From a bacterium (GTDB lineage: Bacteria > Joyebacterota > Joyebacteria > Joyebacterales > Joyebacteraceae), in contig JALGWI010000057.1 of NCBI GenBank assembly GCA_025774245.1, positions 1 through 36,565 on the forward strand: DNA of 36,565 bases, read 5' to 3'. Positions 25,631 through 36,565 of the stretch are shown here, one piece after another; position 1 is the first letter of the stretch; each line of letters opens with the position of its first letter. Made by a program: the position numbers and the translations under genes. The notes under the pieces are model-generated. The model ran no database searches. It saw only the letters and a list, made by a program, of their open reading frames with translations, and was not told where the DNA came from.

Positions 25631-27060
25631 CTATCTCAGAAGCACGAGCTTCCGGCTCTCGACGTCGCCGGCAGCCACCATCCGCGCGAAGTAGACGCCG
25701 CTCGCCACCGGATGCCCCGACCGGTCGCGGCCGTCCCACGCGCGCTCGTGGGCGCCAGGCTCGACGATCCCGTCCTCGAGGACCCTCACCAGCGCTCCGC
25801 GCACGTCGTAGACGGCGAGCGTCACGCTCCCCTCGCGCGCGAGGGTGAACGCCAGACGAGCGCCCGGCGTGAACGGGTTCGGGAACGGCTGTGCGAGCGA
25901 CGTCACGGCCACGTCCGCCCCCTCGGGCACGCCGACGGTGTCGTTCAGCCAGAGCCGCGCCTTGACGTTCGCGAGCGTCGCGACGCCGTGGTGTGCGCCG
26001 CCGGAGAGAACAACGGAGAAGTCCTCGGTCGAGGGAACGTGGAACTGCACGTGGTTGCTCGTCAGTCCGTGGGCGACTTCGTAGGCGTCGAACGGGTTCC
26101 CGAACAGATAGTAGCGGACGAAGTTGAACGGGCTCACGATGAAGAACTCGAGCTGGCCCTCGGGGAGATTCACTGCGTACCAGTCCGTGGGGTTCCCGTA
26201 GTAGATGGACCCGTTCAGGACGTCGTACGGCAGGTCGTACTCGACCTCGATGACGTACGGGGCGTCCGTCACGGGCGGAAGCTCGGTGACGTCGAGACTC
26301 GGCACCGGCTCCGGCGCCGTCCAGCTCCAGTAGTAGTGCTCGCCGGGCACGCTCTCGGAGATGACAAGACCGTAGCCGGTCTCCGGGTAGGTCCCCATCG
26401 AAGTGGTGACCTGGATGAAGTAGTTCTGCGCGTCGCCGAGCACGAACTCGATCGTGCCGTCCCGGTCGGTCTCGCCCCAGGTGCCGCGCCCGAGCGCGTA
26501 CGGCGCGTAGTAGGACTCGCTCGCGATCACGACGGCCGCGTTGTCGACCGGGAGCCCGTTCGGGTCGTCGACGTGGACGCTCAGCGTGCAGACCTGCGAG
26601 TAGCGCGACACGACGTCGTAGGTGTACCCGTCGTTCCGCCAGCTCCAGATGCACGAGACGTTCTTGCCGCCACCGTAGTCGCTGTCGTAAGCGATGCCAG
26701 GGTTGGCGATGTGCGTCGGTCCTCCGCCGAGATCGATCTGGTACGGGTACCAGTCTTCGAGCCACATCTCGCACCAGACGTGATCCTCGAGGATGTCCAT
26801 GGCGCACGCGCAGGGGATGAGACACGTCCGCGCCGCGGCACAGAGGAGGTCCTGCAGCTCGCCGCAGTTCCCGTTGTGCTCGTGGGCGATCTGGCTCGGC
26901 TGGATCGGGCGGTTGCCCGAGGCGGCAGACGGTACCGTCTTCGAGCACCAGTTCCCGATCGCGTCCACGGCGAGCATCGAGTCAGTGAACGCGCGACTGC
27001 CCGACCAGTCGTGCCGGCCCCCATCCCACAGCACCTCGAGCGGTGCCATGATCGTCGTGC
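25631..27060 (-). CDS. C-terminal part of frameshifted transglutaminase-like protein, with sorting module
   Basis: This frame continues the protein that starts at 27884; an internal ATG at 27049 exists but has no ribosome site and falls in mid-domain. It carries the transglutaminase-like core: the nucleophile Cys in HNGNCGELQDLL, then DHVWCEMWLEDWYPYQIDLG, which supplies the His and Asp of the C-H-D triad. A carboxypeptidase-regulatory-like segment follows (LSVHVDDPNGLPVDNAAVVIAS, TDRDGTIEFVLGDAQNYFIQV), then a strand-rich region. The FlgD-like module ends it (AQPFPNPFTPGARLAF, VYDVRGALV, WDGRDRSGHPVASGVYF). Such enzymes act as cysteine peptidases or cross-link/deamidate proteins; the substrate is unknown. 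Joining the two frames needs removal of one base near 27050-27062. Confidence 0.8.
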
Positions 27061-27884
27061 TCGTAGTAGAGGTACTCCCGCCAGAACATGTCGTAGACCG
27101 ACGCGTTCATCAGTGTCATCTCGTCCGAGACCTTCGGCATCGCGACCCACCAGTAGTAAATCTCGGAGGGGATCTCGATCTCCACGGTGTCGCCCGCGAC
27201 GACCGTGCGGTACCGCGTCGTCGAGTAGGAGTCCTCGCCGAGGTCGTAGTCGACGATCTCGACGAACGCAAGCTCCGGGTCGATCTGGTACATGAGCTCA
27301 GCGTTGATCTCGAGAAGCTCGGGCTGGAAGTCGCCGTGGGTGAGAACCGCCTTCGAGAGATGCGCCATTGCGAAGGCGACCTCGTCGACCGTTCGGGGAT
27401 CGCCGAGCCCGAGAAGGAGCTCGCCGAGCCCGTCCTGCTTCACCGCCGAGAGCGACCGGATGTTCTGCTCGAGATCGAGGCGCAGCCACGCGGGGGCGAC
27501 CTCGATGCCCGCGCGCATCGTCGGCGTCAGCGTGTACGGCAGGAGCGTGTCGTTCAATGCCTGCCGACCCTGCTCGAACCGGATGACGTACTCCTCCCCC
27601 GCGCCGACGAAGATGGTGCTCTCGAGTGAGTCGGCGAGCACGTAGCCGGCCGGACGATCGAGGCGCCGCGGCGTCGCCGGCTCCGCGTGCGGAACGGCGA
27701 ACGGCACGGTCGTGACCTGGTGGCGGAGATCGGCCGTGCAGCGGACCGGATCGCCAGGATCGACGGTCGCGCCGCGCTGTTCGGGCGTCTCGGCGGGAGA
27801 GCCGGTGACGAGGACCGCCACGAGGGCGGCGGCGAGGACGATGGCGGGCACGGCGGCCCGGACTGAGCGGGTGAGGCTGGGCAT
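26982..27884 (-). CDS. N-terminal part of frameshifted transglutaminase-like protein
   Basis: The ATG at 27884 follows GGAGGATCTC. A signal peptide covers about residues 1-32 (TRSVRAAVPAIVLAAALVAVLV, cleaved near SPAE). Residues 40-275 form a mostly beta N-terminal domain, with LESTIFVGAGEEYVIRF and DTVEIEIPSEIYYWWVAMP, typical of regions preceding bacterial transglutaminase cores. Genuine sequence ends at about residue 278 (WREYLYYEHDD). The remainder to 26982 overlaps the true downstream frame and is spurious. The intact gene would span 27884 to 25631, about 750 residues. Confidence 0.8.
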   Translation of the reverse strand: MPSLTRSVRAAVPAIVLAAALVAVLVTGSPAETPEQRGATVDPGDPVRCTADLRHQVTTVPFAVPHAEPATPRRLDRPAGYVLADSLESTIFVGAGEEYVIRFEQGRQALNDTLLPYTLTPTMRAGIEVAPAWLRLDLEQNIRSLSAVKQDGLGELLLGLGDPRTVDEVAFAMAHLSKAVLTHGDFQPELLEINAELMYQIDPELAFVEIVDYDLGEDSYSTTRYRTVVAGDTVEIEIPSEIYYWWVAMPKVSDEMTLMNASVYDMFWREYLYYEHDDHGTARGAVGWGPARLVGQSRVH

Positions 27885-28328: not shown

Positions 28329-28573
28329 CCTCGTCCTGGAGAACCCGCGCCTTTCCGCTGCCTCCTGCCCTTCCCCGGCGCACACAGGTATCCCCGCAGG
28401 CACAGAGGTCGTGTCGAAGGCTCCATGCGTTCGGTGCCGTCGGCACGTCCGAACGCGCGCGGACGCGCGTGGCGTGCCGTCGTGAGCCGCGTCCCCCTGA
28501 GGTCAGCAGGGCGGTCGGAAGGCAACGGCGGATCGCTCCGCGCTCCCGCACACAGCCTGGAAGGAGCGGGGAT

Positions 28574-29638
28574 TTGAACACCGCCGTTACCGTCAGTCAG
28601 AAGGAGCTCTTCGACTTCCTTCTGAACGTTGCCGTCGCGAGGCCGGTCTTCATCTGGGGACCGCCCGGGGTCGGGAAGTCGGCCATCGTCGAGCAGTTCG
28701 CGGACGAGCTCGAGATGACCTGCGTCTCCCTCCTCGGGAGCCAGCTCGCGCCGGAGGACATCGTTGGCGTGCCCCAGATCATCGACGGCCGCAGCCGGTT
28801 CTGCCCGCCCACGATGATCGCGCGGGAGGAGCCGTACTGCCTCTTCCTGGACGAGCTGAACGCCTGTTCCCACGAGGTGCAGAAGGCGTTCTACAGCCTG
28901 ATCCACGAGAGGCGGCTCGGGGAGTACCGGCTCCCCGAGGGCTCGATCGTGATCGGGGCCGGGAACCGCGCCCAGGACAGCGCGATCGTGAAGACGATGT
29001 CCTCGGCGCTCATCAACCGGATGGTGCACGTCCACCTGAAGGCGTCGCACCGGGACTGGCTCGAGTGGGCCTACGGGAACGCCATCCACCACCTCGTCCT
29101 CCAGTACATCGAGACGCGCCCGGACCACCTGTGGGTCGAACCCCCCAAGCACGAGGAGCCGTTCTCGTCCCCGCGCGCCTGGCACATGCTGAGCGACACG
29201 CTCAAGGAGTTCGGCGAGGGGGTCACGAACGAGCAGCTCTCGATCCTCGCGTTCGGCTGCCTCTCGCCTCAGCACGCCGGGCAGTTCAAGGCGTTCGTGA
29301 AGCACATCCGCGGCAAGTACCGCTTGTCGGCGATCATGGACGGCGAGATCTCCTGGCCGCGCCAGCCGGAGGACCGCGACCTTCTCTACTTCCTCGCGCA
29401 GTCGTTCCGCGCGCAGCTCATCAAGGAGCTTCCGTCCAAGAAGGAGTCCGGAGGAAACGGCGCCCGCAAGCTCGCCCACAAGGCGAAGGCGCACATCAAG
29501 ACGCTCGCGAACATCAACCTCGAGGTCGCGCAGATGGTCGTCGCCGAACAGGAGGACGGCAACACGCTCCCGGGCTGGTTCATGGTCGACATCGTCCGCG
29601 ACCTCCCGCGTCTCGTGGACAGGAGGAAGAATGGCTAA
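28574..29638 (+). CDS. MoxR-family AAA+ ATPase
   Basis: A 354-residue AAA+ ATPase of the MoxR group. Such proteins act as chaperone-like motors that load metals or remodel protein complexes, typically together with a vWA-domain partner. I place the start at TTG 28574, which follows AAGGAG (28561-28566) by 7 nt and begins NTAVTVSQKELFDFLL. The longer frame from ATG 28469 adds an Arg/Pro-rich tail unlike the family and has no ribosome site. Walker A is GPPGVGKS (Lys35), Walker B is CLFLDELN (Asp93, Glu94), and a sensor-1 Asn lies in VIGAGNR. Further blocks match MoxR-like ATPases (QLAPEDIVGVPQ, ALINRMVHVHL). Its stop overlaps the ATG of the next gene by 8 bp, so translation is coupled. Confidence 0.92.
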   Translation: MNTAVTVSQKELFDFLLNVAVARPVFIWGPPGVGKSAIVEQFADELEMTCVSLLGSQLAPEDIVGVPQIIDGRSRFCPPTMIAREEPYCLFLDELNACSHEVQKAFYSLIHERRLGEYRLPEGSIVIGAGNRAQDSAIVKTMSSALINRMVHVHLKASHRDWLEWAYGNAIHHLVLQYIETRPDHLWVEPPKHEEPFSSPRAWHMLSDTLKEFGEGVTNEQLSILAFGCLSPQHAGQFKAFVKHIRGKYRLSAIMDGEISWPRQPEDRDLLYFLAQSFRAQLIKELPSKKESGGNGARKLAHKAKAHIKTLANINLEVAQMVVAEQEDGNTLPGWFMVDIVRDLPRLVDRRKNG

Positions 29639-31463
29639 AGGCAAGAAGGGAAAGGGCGGGAAGAAGGGGAAGAAGTCCAAGGAGGCACTGGCGGAGGAGA
29701 ACTGGGAGCTCGGCAGCTGGGAGGTGTTCCATCACCCCATGTTCAACAGCTTCCACTACGAGGTGTCCACCCGGGACACGGGGGGCGTCCACTGCCCGGA
29801 CGACGGCTGGCTCGTCGGGACTTCGACCGGCAGGATCGCCGTGAACGACACGCGGCTCTGCGATCCCGATGAGTGGACCTACGTGCTCGCGCACGCGCTT
29901 CTCCACCTTGGGTTCGGTCACTACCAGAAGAGGGAGAGGCCCTGGGAGTGGAACGCCGCCTGCGACGTCGTCGTCGCCAGGTTCCTCTCGGAGCTCAAGC
30001 TCGGGCGCCCGCCGGCTGAGCTCCGTATCGCGGGAGGGTTCCCCCCGCAGAACGAGGAGGCGCTCTACCGCGAGTTCTGCGTCTCCGGCATCCCCGACCA
30101 TCTCCAGGACCTTGGGACGGCGGGGCGCGGGAGTCGGGACATGCTCTTCCGGTCGGGCCCGCCGGTCCTGGACAGGAAGTACGCGAAGGACTACGAGACC
30201 GTCCTCAGCATCGGACTCGCGCGGGCTGTCCGGAACGCCGTGAACGTGGCGGGCGGAGCGAAGCCGTGGACGGGACAGGACCCGAGGCTGACCGTGGCCG
30301 AGCGCGCCCGCCGCTGGTTCGTGAACCACTACCCCCTCCTGGGCGCGCTCGCCGCATCGTTCAAGATCATCACCGATCATGAGGCCTGCCGCCGGCTCGA
30401 CATCAGGATCGCGGCCGTCCACGACGGGATGAAGGAGATCTACGTCAACGAGTTCGCCGACCTGAACGAGGAGGAGTGCCGCTTCGTGATGGGCCACGAG
30501 CTCCTGCACGCCGGGCTCAGGCACGGCGCCCGCGGCCAGGGCCGCGATCCGTATCTCTGGAACGTCGCCTGCGATTTCGTGGTGAACGGCTGGCTCGTGG
30601 AGATGGGGATCGGGGACATCCCCAGGTGCGGCGGGCTCTTCGACCCGGAGCTCAAGGGTGAGTCGGCCGAGTCGGTCTACGACCGAATCGTTCAGGACAT
30701 CAGGCGCTTCAAGAAGCTCGCGACCTTCCGGGGGGTAGGCGCCCCCGACATCCTTCCCGAGGCCGCGAGGCCGGGCGCCTCAGCGGGCGACGGCATCAAC
30801 CTCGACGAGTTCTACAGGAGCTGCCTCGAGCAGGGGCTCGCCTACCACCAGGAGCAGGGTCGCGGGCTCCTGCCCGCCGGCCTCATCGAGGAGATCCGCG
30901 CGCTCTCGGTGCCTCCCATCCCCTGGGACGTCGAGCTCGCGCGGTGGTTCGACGAGCACTTCAGGCCGATCGAGAAGGTGAGGACCTACGCCCGGCCGAG
31001 CAGACGCCAGTCGTCGACACCCGACATCCCGCGACCGCGACTGGTGGTGCCCGACGAGGCCCGCGAGACCAGAACGTACGGCGTCGTCCTCGACACGTCG
31101 GGCTCGATGGACAGGATGCTCCTCGCAAAGGCCCTGGGCGCGATCGCGAGCTACAGCGTGTCGCGCGACGTCCCCGCGGCGCGGGTCGTCTTCTGCGACG
31201 CCGTCGCGTACGACCAGGGCTACATGGCGCCCGAGGAGATCGCGGGAAGGGTCAAGGTGAAGGGCAGGGGCGGCACGGTGCTCCAGCCCGGCGTGAGGCT
31301 TCTCGAGAAAGCGCTCGACTTCCCCAAGGACGCGCCGATCCTCATCATCACCGATGGCTGGTGCGACGAGGTCCGGACGAGGCGCGACCACGCGTTCCTG
31401 CTGCCGAAAGGCCAGTCGCTCCCGTTCGTTCCGAAGGGCAAGGTCTTCCGGATCTGCGAGTGA
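29631..31463 (+). CDS. Dual metallopeptidase-like (DUF2201) and vWA protein, MoxR partner
   Basis: A 610-residue cytoplasmic protein. The first 16 residues are Lys/Gly-rich (KGKKGKGGKKGKK). Two metallopeptidase-like domains of the DUF2201 type follow. The first (about residues 30-180) has H-A-L-L-H (His88, His92) and His97, with Ala in place of the catalytic Glu. The second (about 205-350) has a full H-E-L-L-H (His289, Glu290, His293) and His298. Both are followed by a W-N-x-A-C-D block. The C-terminal vWA domain (about 480-610) has the metal-site motif D-T-S-G-S (Asp488, Ser490, Ser492), the Thr in GRGGTVLQPG and the Asp in ILIITDG. It is translationally coupled to the MoxR ATPase, and the two are expected to work together. 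Target and pathway are unknown. There is no signal peptide. Confidence 0.9.
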   Translation: MAKGKKGKGGKKGKKSKEALAEENWELGSWEVFHHPMFNSFHYEVSTRDTGGVHCPDDGWLVGTSTGRIAVNDTRLCDPDEWTYVLAHALLHLGFGHYQKRERPWEWNAACDVVVARFLSELKLGRPPAELRIAGGFPPQNEEALYREFCVSGIPDHLQDLGTAGRGSRDMLFRSGPPVLDRKYAKDYETVLSIGLARAVRNAVNVAGGAKPWTGQDPRLTVAERARRWFVNHYPLLGALAASFKIITDHEACRRLDIRIAAVHDGMKEIYVNEFADLNEEECRFVMGHELLHAGLRHGARGQGRDPYLWNVACDFVVNGWLVEMGIGDIPRCGGLFDPELKGESAESVYDRIVQDIRRFKKLATFRGVGAPDILPEAARPGASAGDGINLDEFYRSCLEQGLAYHQEQGRGLLPAGLIEEIRALSVPPIPWDVELARWFDEHFRPIEKVRTYARPSRRQSSTPDIPRPRLVVPDEARETRTYGVVLDTSGSMDRMLLAKALGAIASYSVSRDVPAARVVFCDAVAYDQGYMAPEEIAGRVKVKGRGGTVLQPGVRLLEKALDFPKDAPILIITDGWCDEVRTRRDHAFLLPKGQSLPFVPKGKVFRICE

Positions 31464-31490: not shown

Positions 31491-32771
31491 CTACCCCTCG
31501 AGGTCCGTCACCCTTCCCATGAAGAGGATCGCGCCGGTCGCCGTGTCGCGGATCAGGAAGAGGAACGGACGGTCCGCGCGGAAGACGGTCGGCTCCTGGA
31601 AGGACGCCTTGAGAGTAACGACGGCGGTCGCCGCGGCGGCCTCCGTCCCCTCCTCGTTCACCTCGACGAAGGCCTTGTGGAGCACGTTGCTCACGAAGAG
31701 CGTCTTCGTGCCGTCCATGCCGGAGAGGTCGGCAGCGTCGCCGCGGAACACGTCGTGCATCCCGAGCGCGATCAGGTCGTCCCGGAGCTCCGCGGTCCCC
31801 CACGTCATCTCGAATCTGGGAAGGTGGACGGTGACCTCCTGCTTCCCGAGCCCCTTCGACCACTCGTCGAGCCTCTCGGAAGTGAGCGCCTTCTCGACCG
31901 TCGCCAGACCGCCGGCCAGGTTCTCCCTCGGCAGCACGACGACCATCGAAGCCCCGTCCCCCTGGTACGGCAGCTCGATGACCTGGAGGTCCTCCGTCTC
32001 GAGATAGCGATAGTCGTCCTTCCTCCGCATGAGAGACACGCTCGTCTCGGCGCGCTCGCCGTGGAAAGGCGCGACCTCGGTCGCCTTCGTATCGAACTGG
32101 ATCTCCCAGAGCCCCTTGAAGTAGATCGCGTTCGTGAGGACGAGGGTCGTCGCGGGCCCGAGGACGCCGGGGGGAATGAGGTCCTTGATCTTCTCCCTCG
32201 TCCGGTCCTCGACCCAGGCGTTGATCTCACCCCTCGCACCCTCGGCGTTCGTCACGAAGTCCACGCGGTTCATGCCCGCGCCGTAGTGCTTCTCGAGATC
32301 GCTGAGAAACGTCTCGAGGAAGGGATACTCCTTCTGTCCCCAGAGGCTGTTGGCGACGTGGAGCTCGTAGCCCCGCGTCTTCGGGTCAGCGGCGATGCTC
32401 TTCTCCGTCGCGGCAAATGCAGCGGCGACGCGATCGTGCCCCCAGACGGCCGCGGTCTCCGACGCGTCACGGGGCAGATGGAGGACCGCCGCCATCTCCG
32501 TCTCGGTGTTCGCGCGGGCGCCCGCGTACGTCATCGCGAGCGCGCTCGAGATGCTATACGGCGAGAAGAAGAGATTGCCCTGCCCGGCCAGCCGGGCGTA
32601 GAGGTCGAGCGCGAAGCGCGTGTTCCCCGCGACCACGGCGCTGACGTCACCCTCTTCGATTGCGATGTCGGAGTGCACCGGCTCCTCCTCACCCCCACAT
32701 GTCGCCGTCAGAAACAGGACAGCCAGGAGCGCTCCCGCGAGCGTCTCTCTGTGTCGGATCGCCTTCCTCAT
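31491..32771 (-). CDS. Serpin (serine protease inhibitor), exported, probable lipoprotein
   Basis: A 426-residue serpin. The ATG at 32771 is preferred because it follows GAGGGGG and starts an export signal (MRKAIRHRETLAGALLAVLFLTATC); the Cys at about 25 may be lipidated, though the lipobox is imperfect. The longer frame to 32897 is unlikely. Family blocks are NLFFSPYSISSALAMTYAGA, LTNAIYFKGLWEIQF, and the hinge EEGTEAAAATAVV of an inhibitory reactive loop. FRADRPFLFLIRD and GRVTDLEG close the fold. Small Ala/Thr hinge residues predict an inhibitor. Counting from the hinge puts the scissile bond at Ala-Ser (after TLKA). Counting back from FRADRPF puts Lys at P1. The gene is divergent from the caspase-like protein and converges, 28 bp away, on the MoxR-vWA operon. 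Confidence 0.95.
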   Translation of the reverse strand: MRKAIRHRETLAGALLAVLFLTATCGGEEEPVHSDIAIEEGDVSAVVAGNTRFALDLYARLAGQGNLFFSPYSISSALAMTYAGARANTETEMAAVLHLPRDASETAAVWGHDRVAAAFAATEKSIAADPKTRGYELHVANSLWGQKEYPFLETFLSDLEKHYGAGMNRVDFVTNAEGARGEINAWVEDRTREKIKDLIPPGVLGPATTLVLTNAIYFKGLWEIQFDTKATEVAPFHGERAETSVSLMRRKDDYRYLETEDLQVIELPYQGDGASMVVVLPRENLAGGLATVEKALTSERLDEWSKGLGKQEVTVHLPRFEMTWGTAELRDDLIALGMHDVFRGDAADLSGMDGTKTLFVSNVLHKAFVEVNEEGTEAAAATAVVTLKASFQEPTVFRADRPFLFLIRDTATGAILFMGRVTDLEG

Positions 32772-32887
32772 CTTCGGCCCCCTCTTCTCTGGGTCCCTGG
32801 GTCGGGCGGGAATCACCTTCGGCCCCCGATCTTCGATCCCTGATGGACTCGACACCCGCGACGCAGGCCGAGTTGTCGCAGGCCCGT

Positions 32888-32896
32888 ATGATACCA
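32888..32896 (-). promoter_or_regulatory. Extended -10 element of the serpin promoter
   Basis: TATCAT (minus strand, 32893-32888) is preceded by TGG, giving TGgTATCAT, about 110 bp before the serpin ATG. No good -35 box is seen at 16-18 bp. Confidence 0.4.
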
Positions 32897-32970
32897 CGGC
32901 GCACCGCGGACGGCACCGCGGTCACACGCCCGATCGGGCCGCGGCCGGGTGACCTCAACCAAGAAATACC

Positions 32971-32999
32971 TTGACCGCACCACTTTGGTCTGATATCAT
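32971..32999 (+). promoter_or_regulatory. Strong promoter of the caspase-like protein gene
   Basis: TTGACC (32971-32976) is 17 bp from TATCAT (32994-32999), with TGA before the -10. It is the best overall match to sigma-70 in the window. Transcription would start near 33006, leaving a 240-nt leader with hairpins before the ATG at 33247. Confidence 0.65.
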
Positions 33000-33061
33000 C
33001 TCGTCGGAGTGGAAGCAAGCTAGAACTCGCTGTCCAAGCTGGTGAGGTCATGTTCAGAAGC

Positions 33062-33122
33062 GCGATCCCATCGAGAGCGGATCGCCGACGCTAACCAAGC
33101 GCCTGTGGATACCTGCAGGCGC
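33062..33122 (+). other. Two hairpins in the leader of the caspase-like protein gene
   Basis: GCGATCC (33062-33068) pairs with GGATCGC (33079-33085). GCGCCTG (33099-33105) pairs with CAGGCGC (33116-33122), flanked by CAAG and CTTG that can extend the second stem. TTCTTGTGCTTC follows. This could be an attenuator or a small RNA end; no known riboswitch class was recognised. I see no gene in 32999-33246. Confidence 0.35.
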
Positions 33123-33246
33123 GTTCTTGTGCTTCACGCAGTGGCTGGTAGTCACCCTCCACCGCTCGCGGGTCTCCCTGACCTGCCCCCGCGTCACCTC
33201 GAGCCTCCACCGCTACGTGCGCACCCATGAGGAAGGGAGGACACCC

Positions 33247-36200
33247 ATGCGAGCACGCTCGTTCAGCAGCTGGCTCGTTGTCCTGACGTTGCTGTCAGTC
33301 GCATGCGCCGCCGGCACGGCCGGCGCCGCCTCCAGCGCAGAGCTGACCTCGGAGCAGAGCAGTGTCGCCGTCCCTGCCGACGGCACCACGGCCGTGCAGC
33401 CGGACATGGATGAGACGAAGGTGGAGGAAGGCATCCCCGCGTTCGACTTCGGCCTGCAGGAGGCCGTCGTCGACCCGCTGCGGTTCATCGACTCCGCGCG
33501 GCGCCCCGAGACCGAGCTTCGCGCCGCCGTCGACGGCGATCCGGAGACGGATCTCGTACTGATCCCCGGAAGCACGTTCGAGATCGACTTCGTCGGCGCC
33601 CAGCGGTGGATCGACCGCGTCGAGATTACCGCTTCCGGCGGTCCGATCGAGGTGCTCGTCCGCGACTGGCACCACGAGGAGATCCCGGTCGGCACGACGG
33701 ATCCCGCGAGCCGCGCGCCCGCGGAGTTCTTCCTCGACCCGCTTCAGGCAGAGGGGATCATCCTCCGGGTGCCCGGGGACTCGACTCCGGCGTGGGTGTC
33801 GGGCGTCTCCGGCACGTTCGACATCAGAGACCCGGATGACTTCGGGGGCGAGTTGCCGCGCGGCGGCGGTACGCGCGACAGCTATCGAGAGGTCCTCATC
33901 GAATGGATCAACAACTACCCGGGCAGCAGCAGCGACCGCACGATCGGTGACGACGAGCGGAACGGTCTCTGGAACGCGCTCCCCTCGAGCTGGTACAAGT
34001 ACAGCTACGGCAATCACAGCGTCTGGGAGGATGACTTCAAGCGTTCCGGGAGCGGTGGCCAGGAGTACAAATACATCGACAAGCGCGATCTGGTCTACTT
34101 CTCGGGACACGGAACCCTGAAGTGGGACTGGTACTTCGGAGGCAGCAAGCGCTCCATCTACGTCGAGAACAAGTACCACGATGACCGTTACGTCGTGCCC
34201 GGCGAGGCTCGTGACGCGTGGGGTGACGGCGACATGGAGTGGATCGGGCTCTCCTGCTGCAGCCTCCTGGCTCACGACCCTCAGTGGGCCAGAGCCCTCG
34301 ACGGGCTGCACCTGATCTGCGGCTGGAAGACCCACTCGCACCAGTCGAACCGCGCGAAGAAGTGGGGCCAGTACATGGTGAGTTCCGGCTCCTACGATCC
34401 CGCCTGGAAGGTCAAGCAGGCCTGGTTCCAGATGTCCGACGACACCCACAGCCCCGGACACGTGACGCGCGTGATCGGCGAGAACTCGAACATGGGGAAG
34501 GACTACATCTGGGGACAGGGCACCGTGCAGTCGGATCCCCCCGTCAACAACTACTACTACAAGTGGACACACACAACGACGAAGGGACGCTCGAGCGAAG
34601 GCGAAGGCCGCGAAGGCGAGCGCCACGTCTTCCCCGGGGAGCGGCCGGTCCGCGCGCCGAGCCCGTCCTCCGTCCGCGTCCCGGCGCGCACGCCGCGCGG
34701 ATACAAGATCATCTACGACCCGGATCTGCTCACGAGGTCTCGGGACTTGATGCCGCGCTTCGAGGTTGAGCACGAGATCGTCGACGAATCGTACGTTCAG
34801 CAGATCGCCGATGAGCTGTGCGCCGAGCACGGACGCATGTGCACCGGCGACATCGGCCCCGACGAAGACGGCAACCTGTGGATGGTCGACGGGCCGGACC
34901 GGCTCTGTGTGAGCCTGGAGACCGGTGCTGCCACCCTCATGAACGCTGAGACCTGGCTCGCGGAGAGGATGGAGGACGCCGCCATTCCTCCGACGGCCTG
35001 GGACGCCTACGATGAAGCCGAGGCGTTCCTCTTCAGCATCGGGCAGTCGGCAGGGAACCTCTGGGAGGTCTCCTACCTCCACGGAGAAGAGGTCGAGCGG
35101 GAGAGCGGCGTGATCGAGGACGACGTCGTCTGCAACGTCCAGGTCGACTTCATCATGGAGGGAGCGTCAGGGCAGTTCTTCGTCGGACCCGGGTCGAGGT
35201 CGTCGGTAACGATCGGTGACGGCTACCAGATTGAGCGCTGGTCCGAAGGGGGTAACCGGCAGTTCTTCGCCTGGGAGTACGTCGACATCCTCGACTTCAC
35301 CGACGTGGTGGACATCCTGGCGACGCACGGCTGCGACGGAACGATCGACGGGATCGGTGTCCCCGTCGACTCGATGTACGTCAACAGCTACGCGACGGGC
35401 TGGTACATGCACGACCGATGGACCCACCAGGACTACGCCGACCCCACGTACATCTTCGACGTCGACGTCTACTTCGACAATGAGGACGATCCGGCGCCGG
35501 ATCCGACGCCGCTCACCTTCTGCGTGAACGGGTATCGCTGGCCTCCGCTGGGTTCGATCGACGCCCCCAGCACCGGCGGGTGGTACGACGAAGGCACCCC
35601 GATCACGTTCCAGGGATCCGCCACCGGCGGAACGCCCCCGTACACGCTCTACTGGTCGAGCGACATCGACGGAGACCTCGGGATCGGTGGCTCGATCACA
35701 ACCCCGCTCTCGGTCGCATACGTGGATTCCGTCGTGGTGCCGCAGGCGGTCTCCCTGCGCGTGACGGACTCGGAAGGCATGACAACGACGACGTCGATCG
35801 AGGTCGGCATCAACAGCCTCACCGAGTACGCGACGCACAACGTCGGAGAGGTCGCACTGACCGTCACGAACCAGGGGATCCTCGGGTTCACGGATGACTC
35901 CGGTGCCACGGGCTCCGGGTTCGTTTACGGCGGCGAGAACATGCTCTTCATCGGCAGCCCGTGGCTCGGGAACTCCCCGACCTACGTCGCGAACCGCGAG
36001 TACTCCGCGGAGCCCGATCAGGACTGGGTCGTGTCGAGCGATCCCGAGGGATATCTCCTGTTCGGCGACACGCTCTACTCCGATCAGGACGGCTTCGCGA
36101 TCTTCGACGACTCCGGTCATCCTTCGCCGAGAGGAATCCTCGTGGAGCAGCGCTCGTGGGCGTTCATGGTCCGCGATCCCGCCATTGCCGAGCAGCGGGG

Positions 36201-36565
36201 AATCATCCTCTTCTACAGCATGGACGTCCCCACTCCGGCGAACGAGCACTTCGGGCTCTTCATGGACTTCGACATGGGCACGGCCGCGCAGAACGAGGGC
36301 GAGGTGAACGAGCTCGAAGGGTATGCGTCGATGTGGTTCGACACCGGGCCGTACGCCGGCGTTTCGCTCATCGATCCGATCGTTCCGGTGAACATGTCGA
36401 TGGTCCACAACCCGACGTACGTCTACCCGCTTGCGTACATGACGGACGAGGACAAGTACCTCTTCCTGTCGGGAGGCGATCCGGCTCACACAGTGCTCAC
36501 GACGGACGCGCCCGACGACTGGAGCGTGATCGTCTCGGCGACTCCGCCCGTCATTCCTCCCCCCG
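33247..36565 (+). CDS. Large secreted protein with caspase/gingipain-like (DUF6345-like) and PKD domains, C-terminus beyond window
   Basis: The frame is open from ATG 33247 to the right edge: 1106 codons, C-terminus missing. GGGAGG precedes the ATG by about 7 nt. The signal peptide is about residues 1-28. Residues 60-190 are a beta-sandwich, perhaps discoidin-like (AVDGDPETDLVL, RVEITASGGPIEVLVRD). Residues 210-440 resemble DUF6345: LVYFSGHG (His288) and WIGLSCCSLL (Cys337/Cys338) are in the order of the His-Cys dyad of clan CD peptidases such as caspases and gingipains. A charged linker follows (about 445-490). A PKD-like domain lies near residues 775-865 (DEGTPITFQGSATGGTPPYTLYW). After it comes a region common in secreted proteins of these phyla (YATHNVGEVALTVTNQGILGF). 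Peptidase activity is inference. It is divergent from the serpin. Confidence 0.88.
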   Translation, partial: MRARSFSSWLVVLTLLSVACAAGTAGAASSAELTSEQSSVAVPADGTTAVQPDMDETKVEEGIPAFDFGLQEAVVDPLRFIDSARRPETELRAAVDGDPETDLVLIPGSTFEIDFVGAQRWIDRVEITASGGPIEVLVRDWHHEEIPVGTTDPASRAPAEFFLDPLQAEGIILRVPGDSTPAWVSGVSGTFDIRDPDDFGGELPRGGGTRDSYREVLIEWINNYPGSSSDRTIGDDERNGLWNALPSSWYKYSYGNHSVWEDDFKRSGSGGQEYKYIDKRDLVYFSGHGTLKWDWYFGGSKRSIYVENKYHDDRYVVPGEARDAWGDGDMEWIGLSCCSLLAHDPQWARALDGLHLICGWKTHSHQSNRAKKWGQYMVSSGSYDPAWKVKQAWFQMSDDTHSPGHVTRVIGENSNMGKDYIWGQGTVQSDPPVNNYYYKWTHTTTKGRSSEGEGREGERHVFPGERPVRAPSPSSVRVPARTPRGYKIIYDPDLLTRSRDLMPRFEVEHEIVDESYVQQIADELCAEHGRMCTGDIGPDEDGNLWMVDGPDRLCVSLETGAATLMNAETWLAERMEDAAIPPTAWDAYDEAEAFLFSIGQSAGNLWEVSYLHGEEVERESGVIEDDVVCNVQVDFIMEGASGQFFVGPGSRSSVTIGDGYQIERWSEGGNRQFFAWEYVDILDFTDVVDILATHGCDGTIDGIGVPVDSMYVNSYATGWYMHDRWTHQDYADPTYIFDVDVYFDNEDDPAPDPTPLTFCVNGYRWPPLGSIDAPSTGGWYDEGTPITFQGSATGGTPPYTLYWSSDIDGDLGIGGSITTPLSVAYVDSVVVPQAVSLRVTDSEGMTTTTSIEVGINSLTEYATHNVGEVALTVTNQGILGFTDDSGATGSGFVYGGENMLFIGSPWLGNSPTYVANREYSAEPDQDWVVSSDPEGYLLFGDTLYSDQDGFAIFDDSGHPSPRGILVEQRSWAFMVRDPAIAEQRGIILFYSMDVPTPANEHFGLFMDFDMGTAAQNEGEVNELEGYASMWFDTGPYAGVSLIDPIVPVNMSMVHNPTYVYPLAYMTDEDKYLFLSGGDPAHTVLTTDAPDDWSVIVSATPPVIPPP

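Follow-up and report, generated by a model that had tools for sequence, protein, structure and literature searches.

A serpin gene and a divergent DUF6345 gene on a bacterial contig: probable chance neighbours, one with a predicted clan-CD peptidase fold

The window, that is, the whole stretch of DNA analyzed here, is the entire contig C90 (36565 bp). Near its right end, two real genes diverge from each other (Table 1), one for a serpin and the other for a multidomain protein that carries a DUF6345 domain. The distance between their starts (32771 to 33247) confirmed the shared 475-bp region that an earlier note on this DNA had described between a serpin gene and a caspase-like gene. An in-frame GTG at 32897 is a possible serpin start, less likely than the ATG given in Table 1. 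Because the DUF6345 reading frame runs past the contig end, the C-terminus of this protein is missing. Both products had been proposed to be exported and, judged by eye, their N-termini fit: that of the serpin (MRKAIRHRETLAGALLAVLFLTATC) is lipoprotein-like, and that of the DUF6345 protein (MRARSFSSWLVVLTLLSVACAAGTAGA) would likewise be suited to export. Just left of the serpin gene (28469-31460) lies a pair encoding a MoxR-type AAA ATPase and a DUF2201 VWA protein. Within the family, one other genome (G008) had a match to the VWA protein, and its MoxR/VWA site contains neither serpin nor DUF6345. A transglutaminase-like protein with an FlgD-type C-terminal domain is encoded at 25634-27884 and overlaps an unassigned upstream ORF.

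Table 1. Positions of genes, domains and predicted sites in the window
Feature	Position	Strand	Basis or remark
Serpin gene	31491..32771	-	ATG start 32771, stop 31491-31493; PF00079 profile match
Serpin hinge and reactive-centre loop, EEGTEAAAATAVVTLKA / SFQEPTVF	31581..31655	-	Alignment to SERPINB1/B3; canonical P1 Ala, P2 Lys
Extended -10-like TGGTATCAT upstream of serpin	about 32888..32896	-	Readable in sequence
Sigma-70-like promoter TTGACC-17-TATCAT, TG before -10	32971..32999	+	Upstream of DUF6345 gene
Hairpin in DUF6345 leader, 10 pairs	33099..33122	+	Terminator-like, poor T tail
Gene for DUF6345 multidomain protein, predicted exported	33247..36565, open at contig end	+	At least 1106 aa
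Discoidin-like (F5/8 type C) N-terminal domain	33544..33816	+	Foldseek 2kd7, 3nng with full-length model
DUF6345 domain, predicted clan-CD cysteine peptidase fold	33898..34566	+	PF19872, AlphaFold2, Foldseek
His288, predicted catalytic	34108..34110	+	Invariant in 44/44 homologues; 40/40 in second alignment
Cys338, second Cys of SCC, predicted nucleophile	34258..34260	+	Invariant in 44/44 homologues
YycI/YycH-like domain pair	34705..35472	+	Foldseek 5coz E 1.4e-8, 2o3o YycI E 1.4e-6
PKD-like domain	35548..35814	+	Foldseek collagenase PKD 4tn9 TMt 0.82; weak Ig-like sequence matches

Back-to-back extended -10 promoters had been described for the intergenic region, which held for one strand. A promoter scan found one promoter-like site on the plus strand against 0.1 expected in shuffles. 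On the minus strand, the extended -10-like element can be read upstream of the serpin, but a two-hexamer scan gave no scored promoter there, so that the serpin-side promoter is weaker than previously described. The hairpin sits between the promoter-like site of the DUF6345 gene and its start codon. A riboswitch in this leader was rejected, as an Rfam search of it returned no family and its fold was not significant (z -1.7).

The serpin identity read from the sequence was borne out by a full-length match to the family profile (PF00079, MEROPS I4; E 1.2e-116), which covers residues 52-426 and profile positions 2-369 of 370. Sequence search matched 207 PDB serpin chains, with SERPINB3 and B4 at the top (about 5e-86; best E 4.5e-86). 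The hinge, which had been called inhibitory in type, reads EEGTEAAAA; it fits the P17-P9 pattern ExGTEAAAA and corresponds to the inhibitory consensus (PMC8233489). The closest solved relatives by sequence, SERPINB1 and B3 of vertebrate clade B, have the same hinge, and the close similarity of group-B serpins to prokaryote serpins is known (PMC8233489). These vertebrate proteins are intracellular, whereas the window serpin has a predicted export signal. Miropin, the group T serpin of Tannerella forsythia, is likewise bacterial and exported and has an inhibitory hinge; the window serpin differs from it in coming from an environmental phylum without host link and in its loop sequence. The window serpin is probably an ordinary inhibitory-type serpin, anchored by a lipid.

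The reactive-centre loop reads NEEGTEAAAATAVVTLKASFQEPTVF. To place P1, 17 residues were counted off from the hinge, and the P8' Phe was used as an anchor as in SERPINB1; either way, P1 is Ala and P2 is Lys. Either Lys or Ala had been suggested for P1; Ala is the canonical choice, and Lys requires a one-residue shift. Such a shift is biologically possible, since miropin uses bonds outside P1-P1' to inhibit gingipain K along with several other enzymes (PMC8201313), and the two alignments therefore need not be mutually exclusive. By hand count, Lys or Arg was present at P2 (11) or P1 (2) in 13 of 13 readable loops of serpins from the phylum; of 16 serpins from outside it, 6 had such a residue at one of the two positions. 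A loop with Lys at P2 and Ala at P1 would most likely suit secreted proteases with a preference for cleavage after Lys/Arg or after small residues.

Serpins occurred in 14 of the 20 genomes of the phylum, the window genome included, and genome searches found none in either of the two congeners. In the serpin tree, the window serpin fell into one clade with others from its phylum (support 97/90), which indicates that this lineage exists without DUF6345; one phylum serpin, from G003, was placed elsewhere. On these sequence relationships, the serpin has a long history in the phylum. What lies beside it differs among relatives. Genus g4 and a single g8 genome have an S9 peptidase upstream, the remaining genera show different neighbours, and a conserved protease partner was thus rejected. 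The window genome (G000) contained a second serpin on contig C108 (L092, G000:C108:1-4367). Along its full 4367 bp, this contig shares 99.45% identity with one from G008, which belongs to another genus, and it was dropped as evidence because it is probably bin contamination.

The product of the other gene matched PF19872 over residues 218-439 (E 3e-39). Pfam names DUF6345 only as a family of unknown function, and our literature search found no paper that mentions it. The earlier note had guessed at a clan-CD peptidase from SGHG and SCC motifs in clan-CD order, which indeed lie at residues 286-289 and 336-338, and had proposed structure prediction as a check. The SGHG of DUF6345 resembles the metacaspase motif. 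An AlphaFold2 model of the domain, built from an alignment of 40 homologous domains from genome contigs, had a mean pLDDT of 91.3 and a pTM of 0.90. When it was compared with PDB by Foldseek, the top match was the CHAT protease of the SAVED-CHAT filament (8tl0; E 3.8e-6, probability 1.00), followed by caspases, metacaspases, the C11 peptidase iotapain, MALT1 and separase. Matches to caspases and metacaspases had E values of 1e-3 to 1e-5, nearly all of the 50 PDB matches listed were clan-CD enzymes, and caspase and metacaspase proteins were also matched among viral models. The guess was upheld by this confident model, which predicts the alpha/beta caspase/gingipain-type fold of clan CD with the residues of a His-Cys dyad in the order of the clan, His288 (in HG) preceding Cys338. 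Asp278, Asp281 and Glu331 are invariant in the 44 homologues as well. Conservation in the homologues does not extend to the first Cys of SCC, and Cys338 is therefore the predicted nucleophile.

A domain with such a fold might still be an adhesin or binding protein and no peptidase, in which case the serpin would have nothing to inhibit. TM-scores to clan-CD enzymes were only 0.4-0.5, binding-type domains are present in the same protein, and the lack of any paper on the family fits this view too; we nevertheless consider it unlikely, because the His and the Cys never vary among 44 diverse homologues with 23-44% identity to the window domain. Loss of enzyme activity usually relaxes the conservation of catalytic residues. 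The DUF6345 domain is probably an active cysteine peptidase with a His288/Cys338 dyad, as judged from the model and the alignment.

A PDB sequence search with DUF6345 gave no match. The CHAT protease is the best fold match, but identity is 12-17% and TMq is below 0.5; moreover, CHAT is a cytoplasmic defence effector, whereas DUF6345 occurs in predicted exported proteins. With C25 gingipains, DUF6345 shares the order of the HG and C motifs, but the sequence match is not significant: PF01364 did not match the window domain, hhalign gave a probability of 1% (although the two His residues align, as do Cys338 and the C25 Cys), and one DUF6345 member of 40 was hit by the C25 profile at E 0.0096. C14 caspases and metacaspases match in fold, but PF00656 matched neither the window domain (E up to 1) nor the 40 members (E up to 10), and no sign of caspase Asp-specificity was seen. 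Assignment to C25 or C14 by sequence was thus rejected, and on the predicted structure DUF6345 is best treated as a family of its own that has a clan-CD fold.

The full-length model, whose confidence was moderate and below that of the DUF6345 domain model, suggests discoidin-like, YycI/YycH-like and PKD-like accessory domains. The YycI/YycH-like pair was positioned by secondary structure, since the match list had no query coordinates. A matching N-terminal region is present at three other loci (L039, L050 and L069), and relatives of the protein terminate in dockerin or FlgD-type domains. The place of DUF6345 varies between lineages: it is C-terminal in some (L055, L059, L063 and L067) and N-terminal in others (the window, L036 and L041), and by eye the accessory domains of the two types look alike, in swapped order.

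The claim that the two genes form an inhibitor/protease pair fared differently. The earlier note had itself named the lack of a conserved neighbourhood in related genomes as one of two findings that would speak against it, and no such neighbourhood could be identified. In the phylum, DUF6345 was found in 1 of 20 genomes, that of the window; it was absent from the other 19, 13 of which have a serpin. None of 46 DUF6345 loci from other organisms, examined up to 10 kb on each side, had an adjacent serpin. One of the 46 (L039) showed a serpin-like match about 9 kb off, and a genome-wide search revealed a second case, on the L066 contig, in which serpin and DUF6345 are about 10 kb apart; the genes in between are unrelated in both cases. 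These two cases come from a Zixiibacteriota genome (L134; partial match, about 9 kb) and a Dehalococcoidales genome (L133; 10 kb). A serpin within about 10 kb in 2 of 18 genomes with serpin and DUF6345 compares with roughly 0.2 expected by a crude estimate. Genome-wide, a serpin was detected in 19 of 43 DUF6345 genomes. Counting the 18 above the curated cut-off, this exceeded the frequency in the other sampled genomes (7 of 41; Fisher p 0.017, uncorrected for phylogeny and genome type); being uncorrected for phylogeny, this excess speaks weakly for co-occurrence and does not speak for pairing.

A dedicated system, in which the neighbouring DUF6345 peptidase is caught by the serpin, at the cell surface or in the periplasm, so that the cell is shielded from its own enzyme, would agree with this weak co-occurrence, with the adjacency of the genes across a divergent region from which co-regulation is possible, and with the plausible clan-CD nature of DUF6345, given that serpins can inhibit clan-CD enzymes, as CrmA does caspases (PMC7863939) and miropin gingipain K (PMC8201313). 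However, the neighbourhood is conserved neither in the phylum nor at the 46 loci elsewhere, the phylum serpins keep their Lys/Arg loop type without any DUF6345, and the segment itself is lineage-specific. We therefore regard such a system as very unlikely.

The segment deserves further comment. The EF-G of the window shares 88-89% identity with that of the congeners, so the contig belongs to the genus, and the first 12.4 kb together with EF-G are syntenic in congener G001; on these grounds, the idea that the window is contamination was rejected. Positions 23.1-36.5 kb, within which the serpin and DUF6345 genes lie, have no counterpart in G001, and a search across that genome found neither gene. 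Since the pair sits in a lineage-specific segment, adjacency could easily arise by chance, which on the comparative sequence data appears most likely. We thus favor, with a probability of about 0.75, the explanation that the serpin and the DUF6345 peptidase are independently acquired exported neighbours and not a dedicated inhibitor/target system. That a serpin of the phylum was recruited beside a newly acquired DUF6345 peptidase and traps it, as self-protection specific to this lineage, seems improbable; if true, it would be the first natural serpin/peptidase gene pair of its kind in a free-living bacterium.

Other candidate targets are present in the window genome (3.2 Mb), which has 22 matches to C25, the gingipain family (about 20 peptidases), and 7 to S8. 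The C25 expansion extends through the phylum, with 8-27 matches in each of 20 genomes. The basic residues of the loop and the miropin precedent favor C25 or other trypsin-like proteases over the DUF6345 neighbour as targets, and we infer that they are the better candidates. Both congeners have 22-26 C25 matches and no serpin, so the serpin is dispensable and not essential for self-protection. Outside the phylum, a serpin was found in 4 of 15 genomes with C25 and in 3 of 26 without it, which gave no clear link. The absence from C25-rich congeners would also fit a serpin that is non-inhibitory or is directed solely at foreign proteases, for instance from predators, competitors or hosts. This is possible, though doubtful; the hinge follows the inhibitory consensus (PMC8233489), which argues against a non-inhibitory serpin and has no bearing on foreign targets.

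It is well established that a protease attacking a serpin cuts the exposed loop, which then enters beta-sheet A, and that the protease becomes locked as an acyl or thioacyl complex. If the neighbours are independent, the loop of the window serpin would be cleaved in this way and insert into beta-sheet A, dragging the protease along and holding it as an acyl (or thioacyl) complex. Its best targets within the genome would be the roughly 20 C25 peptidases and the S8 subtilases, or else proteases of other organisms. The DUF6345 protein would be a multidomain exported neighbour that acts as a cysteine peptidase through His288/Cys338 and is no dedicated target of the serpin.

These results raise the question of whether bacteria with about 20 gingipain-type peptidases protect themselves by a serpin with a Lys/Arg loop. 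The serpin joins a known family, and DUF6345 is probably a new family of a known clan. The main useful outcome is that DUF6345 emerges as a probable, uncharacterised clan-CD peptidase family of bacteria and archaea, for which the predicted fold and the invariant His/Cys dyad suggest a testable activity in many lineages of both domains.
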